From a virus, in the IMG/VR virus record IMGVR_UViG_3300032304_000220, positions 1 to 34,738 of that record: a stretch of DNA of 34,738 nt; one strand, 5' to 3'. How positions within the stretch are numbered: the stretch's first letter is position 1; each line of letters begins with the position of its first letter. Shown one piece after another: positions 427-32,126 of this stretch. Made by a program: the position numbers and the translations under genes. Below the pieces are notes generated by a model. It was not told the origin of the DNA, did no database searches, and was given only the letters and a program-made list of their open reading frames with translations.

Positions 427-3354
427 ATGGCAGAAGAATACGAACTAGGCACCGTTGGCCCTATACCAACCGTTAACCCCAATGTAGCAAGAATTGGGGA
501 AATGCTTAAAATTGCCAAAAAATATGCCGATCAATATTACGTTAAAGATTACGTTCCATTAATTGGTGGAACAACCCTGGGTGAGTTTCTTTTGGGTAAA
601 GCACCGGAAGAAATTGAACGATGGGGCCAAGGCGATTATCCATTTAGAAATCCTAATGAAGTAGTCAGGACCGGCGGCAACCGCCTGGATGTATTTAAAG
701 CTGGGCGATTTGAACCCCTTCTTGATGTAGCACTTAACGTTGCATTGCCGGCAACTGGTGTTGCACAAACGGCCGCTAGAGTAACAAAAAATTTACCAGT
801 TGGCGCAAGCATTATGGGGCCGGAATCTGCAACCTGGAAACCTGAAATGGCGTTTCAGGCTGGAAAGATGGAAGCTAAAGGGGCCAAGCCGGATGAAATT
901 TTAGAAGCTACCGGCATGGTTCGTGGCCTAGATAACCAATGGCGTACAGAACTTAGTGACCAATTTGCCAAAATGAAGCAAAAAGGCGATATGTTTAGCG
1001 AACAATACATGGCCGCTAAAGATATTGACCCGTTGCAAGTGCATTTAATTAAAGCTGAAGAAGCCAAATATGGCCGTAGTCCGCCTGAATTACACAAAAT
1101 GACGGATAAAGAAAGAAACGATTACGACATTTTCAGAAAAGAAAAGATTGAAGAACACGGGCGAATGAGCAAAGCACCGGTTACGGTAAAGGATGTATTG
1201 GATCATCCTGAATTGTTAAAAGCATACCCGGAACTGGGCGATATTAAAGTTCAAGTTGGTAGCGGCCACGGCGGCCAGCGTGGAAGTTATAACCAAGGTA
1301 AAAAAACCATTACGTTAGCTTCTTATTTAGATAGTGACCAATCCCGTTCTACTATGTTGCATGAATTAACCCATGCAATACAAGCTAAAGAAAACTTTAA
1401 CAGGGGTGGCAACCCTGATATGTTTACGCACCAAAATTTAGCCTTGGAATTAAAGCAAAAATTAGAAATTAGGGGCGTGGCCGATGTAGTTAGAAAAGGT
1501 ATGCCCGATGCCAGCGAAGCAGACGTTTTAGCTAAATTAGAAAATATTTACAAAAACAAAGGTTTTGACCAGGATTATTTAAAAGAAGCGTTGGACCGCA
1601 GTTATTGGTCAGATGAAGTGGCCCAAAAAGCAGTTAAAGAATATGGATTAGATAAAAGAGAAATTCCGTATTCAAAAGAAGAAATGTATAAAAACCTGGC
1701 CGGGGAAGCGGAAGCCAGGATGGTCCAAAACAGACTTGATTTATCCCCGGAAGAATTGCGTACTAACTTCCCGTATCAATATGCGCCAAATAAATACGGC
1801 CTAGACATTTATCCTGACAACGCAAACGTTATTAGTGACCGTGGCCAATTAATTAATGAACCATCACAAAGCTTAGACATAAAGGGGTTTAAAGATGAAG
1901 GAAATTTTAGAAGGGTGGGAGAACCACAATCAAACCTTGAAAAGTTTGGGATTGCCGGAAATGAACAAAGCGGATTACCAGGCGGCCTTATTGAGAACGC
2001 CGGTAGAATCACACGAGGAAGCAATCCGGATGACATTGCGAAACAGACCGAATTCATCCAAGCCAACTTAAACAATCCGAAGTTCAACAAAGCTTTAGCA
2101 TTAGCGCAAAAACATAATCCTAATTTTGATATACAGGCTATTAAAGATATGCCTGAATCATCTTTGGGCAAACAACATTCAATTGCTAGAACTTATGATT
2201 TGTTGACTAAAGATAGCGTTTCACCCCAGCTAAAAAACGCTATTTATGATGATTACGTGGCTAAATACCCTGATTTGATCAAACAATATGACGTTAAAGA
2301 TTACGATGATTTAGTAGAAAAATCTTACGCCCAGCTAAGAAAAGAAGTTGACCAACAATTTGATGACATGGTTAAAGGCGGCATGAAATTGTCGTACCAC
2401 CAAGGCGATGCTAATTACCTGGATTCAAGGGAAATGCTACGGGATGCCCTGGTAAACAACCATTTATATACTTATCGTGGCGGTGACGTACACCCATTGT
2501 TAAACGAAATGGATGAATTCTACGGCCTAAACAGTAACGAAAAATTCCGGGCGGTCCATGATTTTTTTGGGCACGGCACAACAGGGGCAACTTTTGGCCG
2601 TAAGGGTGAAGAAACTGCTTACGGTGCCCATGCCCAAACATTAAGCCCAATGGCCAGGATAGCGGCCGCCGCTGAAACTAGGGGTCAAAACAGTTTTGTT
2701 AACTATTCCGGCATTAATGCAGACCTGGAACAAAAGATGATGTCAACCAGGATAGCTAGGGACCAAGCCGTACACCGGGGCAAAAGCCCTGAACAATACG
2801 ATGCTATTTTGCGTGACCTAGGCGGCCAATGGCAGTACGCAAAACAACAAGGCGTGGCATTACCCCCGGATATGCTGGAAGCCGGCTACAAAGGCGAAAT
2901 GCCTGATTACATTAAAAGCAATCTATTTCCGGAATATGGGGTAAGCCATAAGGGCTACCATTATTCCAATTTATCTGACCTAGAATCAACTGATCCAGCT
3001 AAATACGGCTATGGAATCCGGGGCGCAGAAGCTAAAAGATTGGCCCTTCCAGGATCAATCAAGGAACGTACCTATTTTTATAATGAACCAGGGATGCGTG
3101 AACCTGGCCTTGGCCGCAATCAATATGAAGCAGATTTAAACCATTTTTACGATACTGAAGCTGATCCAGCCGGCATTATTCGCATGGCAGATAACTTTAA
3201 TCGTGACAAATACGGCATATTAGATACTGCCGGCAAAGCCAATGATATTGAACGCATGATGCGTGAAGCCGGGTATCACGGTTACTTTAATCAAAACACC
3301 GGAGTTGGTATATCTTTTGAGCCACAAATTGTTCGTGAATATTCACGTGAATAG
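427..3354 (+). CDS. Large polyvalent protein: zincin-like domain, conserved HDxxGH domain, ART-like C-terminus
   Basis: This 975-residue protein resembles the multi-domain 'polyvalent' proteins that some phages inject with their DNA. Residues 252-440 look like the metallopeptidase-like domain of that group: LHELTHAIQ (H312, E313, H316) is an HExxH motif, followed by NLAGEAEAR (423-431), which can supply a third metal ligand. Residues 640-835 form a second conserved block with HDFFGHGTTG (711-720) and ETRGQN (750-755); I know similar blocks in other phage polyvalent proteins but not their activity. Residues 843-973, from GYHYSNLSDL to GVGISFEPQIVREY, resemble the ART-PolyVal (ADP-ribosyltransferase-like) fold. 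The strict catalytic residues are not obvious, so this domain is tentative. It starts 8 nt after rusA with a weak ribosome site and shares no overlap with its neighbours. A virion-borne effector is possible but inferred. Confidence 0.7.
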   Translation: MAEEYELGTVGPIPTVNPNVARIGEMLKIAKKYADQYYVKDYVPLIGGTTLGEFLLGKAPEEIERWGQGDYPFRNPNEVVRTGGNRLDVFKAGRFEPLLDVALNVALPATGVAQTAARVTKNLPVGASIMGPESATWKPEMAFQAGKMEAKGAKPDEILEATGMVRGLDNQWRTELSDQFAKMKQKGDMFSEQYMAAKDIDPLQVHLIKAEEAKYGRSPPELHKMTDKERNDYDIFRKEKIEEHGRMSKAPVTVKDVLDHPELLKAYPELGDIKVQVGSGHGGQRGSYNQGKKTITLASYLDSDQSRSTMLHELTHAIQAKENFNRGGNPDMFTHQNLALELKQKLEIRGVADVVRKGMPDASEADVLAKLENIYKNKGFDQDYLKEALDRSYWSDEVAQKAVKEYGLDKREIPYSKEEMYKNLAGEAEARMVQNRLDLSPEELRTNFPYQYAPNKYGLDIYPDNANVISDRGQLINEPSQSLDIKGFKDEGNFRRVGEPQSNLEKFGIAGNEQSGLPGGLIENAGRITRGSNPDDIAKQTEFIQANLNNPKFNKALALAQKHNPNFDIQAIKDMPESSLGKQHSIARTYDLLTKDSVSPQLKNAIYDDYVAKYPDLIKQYDVKDYDDLVEKSYAQLRKEVDQQFDDMVKGGMKLSYHQGDANYLDSREMLRDALVNNHLYTYRGGDVHPLLNEMDEFYGLNSNEKFRAVHDFFGHGTTGATFGRKGEETAYGAHAQTLSPMARIAAAAETRGQNSFVNYSGINADLEQKMMSTRIARDQAVHRGKSPEQYDAILRDLGGQWQYAKQQGVALPPDMLEAGYKGEMPDYIKSNLFPEYGVSHKGYHYSNLSDLESTDPAKYGYGIRGAEAKRLALPGSIKERTYFYNEPGMREPGLGRNQYEADLNHFYDTEADPAGIIRMADNFNRDKYGILDTAGKANDIERMMREAGYHGYFNQNTGVGISFEPQIVREYSRE

Positions 3355-28734: not shown

Positions 28735-28750
28735 ACCGCAACATTGCGGT
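28735..28750 (-). promoter_or_regulatory. 5' leader hairpin, copy 1
   Basis: On the minus strand ACCGCAATGTTGCGGT gives a 6-bp stem with an AUGU loop. It begins 7 nt after the -10 box, so at the expected transcript start, and ends exactly 19 nt before the ATG. Copy 2 (31110-31125) has the same position, loop and spacing. The third base pair is C-G here and G-C there. Confidence 0.75.
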
Positions 28751-28757
28751 ATTTGTT

Positions 28758-28786
28758 AATTTACTAAAGTTTTCTTTAGTTGTAAA
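28758..28786 (-). promoter_or_regulatory. Leftward promoter with operator dyad in the spacer
   Basis: On the minus strand TTTACA (28786-28781) and TAAATT (28763-28758) are 17 nt apart. The spacer and first base of the -10 hold the dyad ACTAAAG-AAAA-CTTTAGT. The 20 bases 28763-28782 are the exact reverse complement of those at the rightward early promoter (31853-31872). A half-site CAACTAAA lies just upstream near 28799. It drives the lipobox gene and the 67-residue gene. Confidence 0.75.
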
Positions 28787-31090: not shown

Positions 31091-31109
31091 GTTTATTTCC
31101 TTATTTATC

Positions 31110-31125
31110 ACGGCAACATTGCCGT
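31110..31125 (-). promoter_or_regulatory. 5' leader hairpin, copy 2
   Basis: On the minus strand ACGGCAATGTTGCCGT forms a 6-bp stem with loop AUGU. It begins 7 nt after the -10 box and ends 19 nt before the ATG at 31090, exactly as copy 1. The third pair is exchanged relative to copy 1 while the rest is unchanged, which supports pairing in RNA. The following leader, GATAAATAAGGAAATAAAC, is also close to copy 1. Confidence 0.75.
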
Positions 31126-31188: not shown

Positions 31189-31419
31189 ATGACAGATGCA
31201 CAACTAATCGACCTACTGGGCCGGCCAGCAAAGGTGGCAAAGCTATGTGGCGTAACGGTCCAGGCGGTGTGTCAATGGCGCAACAACAATGCAATTCCAG
31301 CCGCACCGTTGATGCTTATCGCGGCAACAATAGAAAAAGAATCAGCCGGCCTTGTTACCAGGAAAGACCTTTTTCCACAGACTTGGCAATTAATTTGGCC
31401 GGAGTTAAGCACGGTTTAG
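31189..31419 (+). CDS. Cro/YdaS-like repressor
   Basis: This 76-residue DNA-binding protein is the only clear regulator. Residues 13-33 (PAKVAKLCGVTVQAVCQWRN) form a helix-turn-helix with the Cro/YdaS spacing, and AIPAAPLMLIAATIEKESAG to DLFPQTWQLIWPEL is the family's usual second half. There is no peptidase (LexA/CI) domain, so it would not be cleaved in an SOS response. AAAAGGAAAA precedes the ATG. It lies next to divergent promoters that share a symmetrical motif, so it is the likely ligand of the ACTAAAG dyads; this is inference. Confidence 0.85.
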   Translation: MTDAQLIDLLGRPAKVAKLCGVTVQAVCQWRNNNAIPAAPLMLIAATIEKESAGLVTRKDLFPQTWQLIWPELSTV

Positions 31420-31433
31420 TTTTATGATATAGT
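31405..31433 (+). promoter_or_regulatory. Candidate extended -10 promoter before the structured stretch
   Basis: TGATATAGT (31425-31433) fits an extended -10 (TGnTATAAT) with one mismatch. A weak -35, TTAAGC (31405-31410), is at 17 nt. The start would be near 31440, just before the long hairpin. Confidence 0.4.
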
Positions 31434-31439
31434 TACCGT

Positions 31440-31565
31440 ATTGAGGAATTGAACACTCGATACCGTAGGGCTTTAGAGGTAGTTTTGTGGGTTTAGGAAA
31501 TAAGATAAGAGGTATTTTCTAAGCCGTTCAATCACAGAATTACCCCTAAAGCCCTTTTTCTTTTT
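31440..31565 (+). ncRNA. Candidate small RNA: long bulged hairpin with T-tract
   Basis: Segment 31467-31489 pairs with 31533-31555: 23 positions with one A-C mismatch and two G-U pairs. Inside, 31490-31502 pairs with 31513-31525 over 13 positions with two G-U pairs and a 10-nt loop. Between the two stems on the 3' side is a 7-nt bulge, GTTCAAT (31526-31532), exactly complementary to ATTGAAC (31448-31454) just upstream, so a pseudoknot is possible. The outer stem is followed by TTTTTCTTTTT. It could be an independent RNA or a very long terminator of the repressor message. No coding frame with a ribosome site is seen here. Confidence 0.6.
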
Positions 31566-31848
31566 GCACCGTTCAATCGGACTTCCCCCGATAGCAATGC
31601 GGTTAGATCGCCGGCTGGAAAGAATAGATTGGCCTACCAGCACCCGGTATGCGCCACGTAGGCTTAAATGGGCACTACACAAGTTTTAAGGGCCAACGGT
31701 GATAGACAACCCTTTAAACGATTGAACATTAACTTAGGTAGCATTAGTTCAAGTAAAGCAATACCTTCTTGAATGGATGTGGGCTTATCACCCTTGGGGA
31801 ACCTATGACTAAAAAACAACACTAGGGAAAGTACCTATAAAAATATAT
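31566..31848 (+). other. Second half of the gene-free stretch: nested complementary segments (structured RNA or origin)
   Basis: GTTCAATCG (31571-31579) pairs with CGATTGAAC (31719-31727). Within this, GGCCTAC (31631-31637) can pair with GTAGGCT (31658-31664), and GTTTTAAGGG (31683-31692) with CCCTTTAAAC (31710-31719, one mismatch). The loop of the last hairpin holds GGTGATA (31698-31704), complementary to TATCACC (31786-31792), a possible pseudoknot. The stretch has no convincing gene; a minus-strand open frame begins with TTG and lacks a ribosome site. Together with 31440-31565 it fills the only gap over 300 bases. A replication origin is the main alternative. Confidence 0.5.
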
Positions 31849-31877
31849 TTGACAACTAAAGAAAACTTTAGTAAGAT
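31849..31877 (+). promoter_or_regulatory. Rightward early promoter with operator dyad in the spacer
   Basis: A perfect TTGACA (31849-31854) and TAAGAT (31872-31877) are 17 nt apart. Between them is ACTAAAG-AAAA-CTTTAG(T), a perfect 7-bp dyad counting the first base of the -10. The 20 bases 31853-31872 are the reverse complement of 28763-28782. This is the best promoter in the window. It should start the early operon 31920-34699 and perhaps run on through rusA and beyond. Confidence 0.85.
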
Positions 31878-31919
31878 ATATATACGGTCAAGTGATCGTG
31901 ATTAGAAAAGGAAAACAAA

Positions 31920-32126
31920 ATGTACGAAAAAGCCCTAAAAGAATTTGCCAAACTATCTACCGTTAACCGGGATGATCTTGACGGCACCATTGCCCACCTA
32001 GTGTTCCGTGCCCAGCACGAACTGGACCTAGAAGATGAAGGCGAAAACGAATACATAGAATTTGAATTGCCTAAAGGCGAATACGCCAGGCTTACCAAAT
32101 TTGTAGCTAAATGGACGGGTAAATAA
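31920..32126 (+). CDS. Acidic early protein, 68 residues
   Basis: I do not recognise this first product of the early operon. It is acidic (ELDLEDEGENEYIEFELPKGEY) between two helices and ends KFVAKWTGK. The AAAAGGAAAA site before the ATG is strong. Small acidic early proteins often act on host enzymes or nucleoid proteins, but nothing in the sequence shows a target. Confidence 0.65.
   Translation: MYEKALKEFAKLSTVNRDDLDGTIAHLVFRAQHELDLEDEGENEYIEFELPKGEYARLTKFVAKWTGK

Follow-up and report, generated by a model that had tools for sequence, protein, structure and literature searches.

A conserved two-domain RNA locus with a constant 5' domain and exchanged 3' domains in the early control region of phages

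Introduction

The question raised by this locus is what occupies a gene-free stretch (31420-31919) of a 34,738-nucleotide viral DNA, IMG/VR record IMGVR_UViG_3300032304_000220, which we analysed at its full length and call the window. The stretch lies between a YdaS/Cro-like regulator gene on the + strand (31189-31419; Pfam YdaS_toxin, 4.8e-8; PHROG transcriptional repressor, 1.1e-15) and a small gene at 31920, with a replication organiser gene (PHROG replication initiation) nearby. An earlier note on this DNA had pointed to nested complementary segments at 31566-31848 and had read them as either a multi-domain structured RNA or a replication origin, with comparative folding and GC-skew analysis among the checks that it proposed. 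Ornate phage RNAs such as GOLLD and ROOL are a known kind (PMC12286853). In this report, we provide comparative evidence that the stretch almost certainly encodes a conserved structured RNA of about 380 nt, which begins directly 3' of the cro-like gene and sits in the early control region of the phage, and that the two halves of this RNA very probably belong to one modular two-domain gene.

Results

Relatives of the locus

Relatives were collected by scanning viral contigs with neighbouring proteins and DNA patterns, which yielded several hundred loci. Near DNA matches were few in the phage collection; two Manatee Spring phage genomes, MW202674 and MW202753, have parts of the gene-free stretch in common with the window, and the first half of the RNA is common to many freshwater phages. 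Gene order is stable in most loci and runs from leftward exonuclease and SSB-like genes through the cro-like gene, the RNA and a variable small gene to the replication organiser. The same synteny is found in MW202674, whose cro-like protein is 41% identical, and L214 and L243 are among the few loci with a different gene context. The GenBank entries of the two Manatee Spring genomes carry 'hypothetical proteins' annotated over the RNA (L003 5130-5377, L004 2972-3403), which are probably not genes. Exact patterns for the type a and type b RNAs described below gave no match among bacterial genomes of 84,980 species, a result that excludes close copies only.

A constant 5' domain with a loop-bulge pseudoknot

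A module corresponding to 31420-31565 is common to the loci and contains a -10-like element and the 5' domain (31439-31565), which is composed of a hairpin (P1), a long hairpin (P2) and a U-tract. In an alignment of 41 distinct 5' sequences (A2), 44 pairs were formed in 99.4% of cells and 23 pairs had changes in both partners (double changes); when the partners were slid, pairing in this domain fell to 32-55%. P1 (31439-31462, + strand) bears in its loop the segment X, ATTGAAC (31448-31454), and has 99.4% of cells paired and two double-change pairs, while P2 (31467-31555, + strand) contains in an internal bulge the segment Y, GTTCAAT (31526-31532), its outer and inner helices being 98.9-100% paired with 16 double-change pairs. 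X and Y form a pseudoknot that is paired in 99.7% of cells, with double changes in five of its seven pairs in the fixed columns of A2. Across the wider set, a 7-bp X/Y contact was found in each of the 97 modules with a located P2, including copies that can hardly be aligned, and took about 30 different sequences; when X was combined with Y from modules of different X, full pairing was obtained in only 2.9%. For this automatic search P2 was located first, since its arms confounded the search otherwise, and the best 7-mer was taken, which may have let in a small number of false contacts; the fixed-column count from A2 is the firmer evidence. Of the four copies of GTTCAAT/ATTGAAC that had been noticed in both orientations, those at 31448-31454 and 31526-31532 are thus the two sides of a covarying pseudoknot, and those at 31571 and 31721 lie outside it. 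The latter are coincidental, because in L180 the 5' domain reads CTTGAAC/GTTCAAG and ATTGAAC is retained in the 3' domain.

Complementary segments that differ between phages bring immunity to mind. The P4 CI and P1/P7 c4 antisense RNAs are small phage RNAs of the immunity region with complementary segments, and the RNA described here is similar to them in these respects and adjoins a cro-like gene. An antisense or immunity RNA of this kind, in which X and Y set specificity between phages, would fit the fact that these segments vary among related phages and remain complementary within each version; however, a contact with a purely structural role, both sides drifting together, would account for the variation equally well, no c4 family was matched at Rfam thresholds, and a search of the rest of the window, the phage's own genes included, for an antisense target gave a longest complement of 13 nt, about the chance level. 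The constant scaffold and the several 3' domains are further differences, and we consider this explanation very unlikely.

Directly 3' of P2 lies a terminator-like U-tract, TTTTTCTTTTT (31555-31565, + strand), and at least five consecutive T follow P2 in 101 of 102 distinct modules. A stable hairpin, P2 being 99% paired, with a U-tract at once after it fits the form of an intrinsic terminator, and the 5' domain is predicted to contain one. Since the U-tract is kept at the foot of P2 even in very divergent copies, it most plausibly either terminates transcription or provides the 3' end of a shorter version of the RNA.

The 3' domain of the window

The window carries a 3' domain (31577-31800, + strand) that we call type a, of which 104 distinct cores were aligned. 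Its structure, assembled from the alignment and from the column pairs found with a tree-based null, comprises 11 helices with 65 pairs in total, and four of the helices are pseudoknots (31583-86/31617-20, 31607-09/31627-29, 31667-68/31729-30 and 31694-704/31786-96, + strand). In the null, the inferred substitutions were replayed along the tree of the 104 sequences; 15 column pairs reached E<=0.05, and 13 of these 15 were canonical. Among 43 diverse type a sequences (A3), 92.1% of cells were paired, against 36-43% in slid controls, a figure that leans in favour of the structure because the latter was drawn partly from the same sequences; the 39 double-change pairs and the tree-based null depend less on this. 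As the sequences are related, the double changes are not independent events, and for the 3' domain this kinship is covered by the tree-based null. The weakest helix, 31684-92/31710-18, was 69% paired in A3; it is variable in length and lies where the alignment is doubtful, which explains the low figure. No terminator marks the end of the 3' domain in the sequences that were read, and the 3' end may thus be made by processing.

The segments noticed earlier at 31566-31848 are all present, and several of the pairs drawn between them, as well as their extent, have to be revised. The supposed 9-bp closing pair, 31571-31579/31719-31727, pairs at the level of shuffles (58.4% vs 58.3% of cells) and is thus not conserved; its 5' strand instead begins a local hairpin, 31577-31580/31588-31591. 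The proposed contact of the loop GGTGATA (31698-31704) with TATCACC (31786-31792), by comparison, held up: it falls within a helix of 10 pairs, four of them with double changes, in which pairing holds in 92.5% of cells. The element begins about 130 nt earlier than had been supposed and ends near 31800-31815. On minimum free energy folding, 31566-31848 did not exceed shuffles in stability (z +0.62), owing to the pseudoknots and the wrong boundaries; with the energy at shuffle level, the single sequence proves nothing, and the evidence comes from comparison, in which pairing was conserved in both domains above shuffles and slid controls.

Rfam 15 contains no match for the type a 3' domain, either at the gathering score or at E up to 10; the only matches at E up to 10 were chance microRNA-like ones to the long hairpin. 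GOLLD and ROOL were thus not matched either; the earlier note had remarked that this RNA is smaller and shows no obvious match to them. Like them, the RNA is large, ornate and phage-borne, and it is pseudoknotted with a loop-bulge contact backed by covariation; comparable contacts found by covariation in GOLLD and ROOL turned out to be intermolecular (PMC12286853). Copies of the present RNA might similarly join by kissing loops, with X-Y pairing between molecules, into an RNA-only oligomer or cage. Intra- and intermolecular pairing cannot be separated by sequence alone; against such self-assembly stand the missing Rfam match and the length, about half of theirs (about 380 nt here vs more than 800 nt for many GOLLD RNAs), and we regard it as unlikely.

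Exchange of 3' domains behind the same module

In the viral loci compared, the shared module (31420-31565) is followed by one of several unrelated 3' sequences. With a 5' model (R1), the module was found directly 5' of almost all copies of types a and b. The window and L060 are 96% identical in the 5' module and 34% identical, that is unrelated, in their 3' parts, and L180 and L046 are likewise 93% identical in the module and 30% in the 3' parts. The type b 3' domain is the Rfam family RF02932, Betaproteobacteria-1 RNA, which scored 86-102 bits in type b sister loci and gave no match at its threshold of 49.4 bits in the window. It occupies the same position in sister phages, where the 5' domain ahead of it is up to 96% identical, and like the window RNA it is conserved and structured, yet the two 3' domains are unrelated in sequence and in structure. 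The Rfam model covers 120 nt only and is without the 5' domain; in these phages, RF02932 makes up only the 3' part of a larger RNA. The family reportedly stems from a 2017 paper, and no mention of Betaproteobacteria-1 RNA by name was found in the literature searched.

Type d (L295, L330, L346, L355, L359, L364 and L378) and type e (L324, L325, L329, L333, L337 and others) show some compensatory changes in few sequences, and types c (L004) and f (L348), with one sequence each, are set apart by sequence alone. L348 also has a tRNA gene at 3038-3108 on the - strand. Among the fetched loci, type a was found in 154, type b in 102, type e in 19, type d in 10 and type f in one, counts that are not independent because many loci overlap or come from the same contig; in no locus did two types occur together. 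Seven near-complete phage records have one 5' module each; in an eighth, MW202674, the module reached only 23.6 bits with the 5' model, below the threshold of that search. In the near-complete records RF02932 is confined to type b phages, and two matches in G009, at the two ends of the record, probably represent one copy. The type a RNA was also seen in larger viral contigs, L204 (67 kb) and L243 (52 kb, with a different neighbourhood), and therefore it is not restricted to 34-36 kb P22-like phages.

Strand, transcription and the origin hypothesis

In the structures of the two domains, G.U cells outnumber A.C cells by 182:5 and 244:37, and it is therefore the + strand RNA whose fold has been selected. 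An extended -10-like element, TG-A-TATAGT (31425-31433, + strand), in which TGATATAG is nearly invariant across the 41 aligned modules, is the predicted promoter, and the RNA is predicted to start near 31438-31442. A TATAAT-like hexamer stands at a fixed place 5' of P1 even in very divergent copies, and in some (the L241/L196/L254 group) TTGACA lies 17 nt upstream of it. Because the -35 box is weak in the window and in most copies, transcription could come from the promoter of the cro-like gene instead. No conserved reading frame was found in the aligned 3' domains (median 2-5 stops per frame on both strands), and a search for tRNA and tmRNA gave none.

The covariation, the strand-specific wobble pairs and the fixed position of the -10-like element ahead of the fold therefore bear out a multi-domain structured RNA in the gene-free stretch. 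The other possibility raised earlier, a replication origin in which the inverted segments act in DNA, draws on the gene-free character of the stretch, its many inverted segments and the replication organiser gene beside it. However, the conserved feature is a single-stranded fold that is specific to one strand and preceded by a promoter-like element, unrelated 3' modules occupy the same spot, no iteron array was found in 31200-32100, and the GC skew tracks gene direction with no sharp turn at the locus. We thus regard an origin as highly improbable.

The downstream flank and the leader hypothesis

The 3' boundary of the RNA locus is marked by a downstream early promoter, TTGACA-17-TAAGAT (31849-31877, + strand), with a palindrome, ACTAAAGAAAACTTTAGT (31855-31872), between its boxes. 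At 28761-28786, in what looks like a leftward promoter, the palindrome recurs with few differences over 26 nt; it is a likely operator, with variants in sister phages. Between the RNA and this promoter lies a conserved element, TAGGG-N-CCTA (31821-31837, + strand), recognized by eye as TAGGG-(5-6 nt)-CCTA behind all 3' types, very divergent phages included (L003, L222, L302, L324, L330 and L348); it belongs to the locus though perhaps not to the RNA, and may be a protein site or a 3' hairpin of the RNA. Short G+C-rich hairpins (e.g. ACGGTCAAGTGATCGTGA and ACCGCAACATTGCGGT) were also observed after early promoters on both strands (31884-31900, about 31102-31125 and 28735-28750), shortly 5' of ribosome-binding-site-like stretches, and in sister phages the stem is kept and the letters are changed.

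These surroundings bear on whether the RNA as a whole is a long cis-acting leader that controls the downstream early genes, its 5' domain being either an attenuator or an antiterminator of the put kind. The put antitermination RNA of phage HK022 forms hairpins at the very 5' end of the early transcript, and the present RNA is comparable in layout: its hairpins would come first in an early phage transcript, directly behind a promoter-like element, a terminator-like hairpin stands at the end, early genes follow, and its position 3' of a cro-like gene is compatible, being the site of such signals in lambdoid phages. In contrast to put, however, P2 looks terminator-like, the structure is larger, it includes a pseudoknot between loop and bulge, and it is followed by a structured 3' domain. 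Moreover, the downstream genes are served by a separate promoter directly behind the 3' domain, several unrelated and highly conserved 3' domains would be needless in a leader, and there is one module per genome, whereas put-type signals are present on both early transcripts. A leader is therefore rather unlikely in our view, and the RNA's own -10-like element together with the separate promoter of the downstream genes argues for an independent RNA.

Discussion

Comparison of the loci establishes the fold, its strand, the two-domain anatomy and the exchange of 3' domains. On balance we favour the explanation that the locus encodes an independent, trans-acting phage ncRNA, transcribed from the + strand, in which a constant 5' scaffold carries interchangeable effector domains; action in trans, taken by itself, is probable. 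RNA polymerase would start at the -10-like element, and P2 with the U-tract would serve as a conditional terminator, or as a scaffold for processing or protection, its folding being tuned by the P1-P2 pseudoknot. Some transcripts would stop at the U-tract to give an RNA of about 125 nt, and others would continue into the 3' domain; because a structured 3' domain regularly lies beyond the U-tract, part of the transcripts must read on. The conditional-terminator step is offered only tentatively. The 3' domain may then be the effector, and phages would exchange effectors, presumably to suit the host or competitors.

To our knowledge, no RNA has been described in which a constant 5' domain is joined to any of several 3' domains, each conserved in itself and unrelated to the others; earlier surveys of viral structured RNAs may list some of these domains unnamed. 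In GOLLD, one half is well conserved and the other less so (PMC12286853); here, by contrast, the 5' domain is constant and the 3' part is swapped for unrelated conserved folds. We give slightly better than an even chance to the reading that the 5' domain, with its loop-bulge pseudoknot, is an RNA chassis on which unrelated effector domains are recombined at one early locus, the effectors being type a, RF02932 and types d and e, and probably also c and f. By analogy, such exchange may be likened to that of defence and anti-defence genes.

Whatever its role, the locus adds to the known RNAs a well supported fold that is absent from Rfam, and the orphan family RF02932 is completed by the 5' half that it lacked and is assigned a position in the genomes of phages. 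It provides an ncRNA locus in which a constant part is combined with interchangeable, unrelated structured parts. If the proposal is true, these RNAs would represent a class of modular ncRNA gene, with Betaproteobacteria-1 RNA as a piece of it that had already come into view. Genes that are swapped in this way are usually involved in conflict or in interaction with the host, and thus the role of ornate phage RNAs would become testable.
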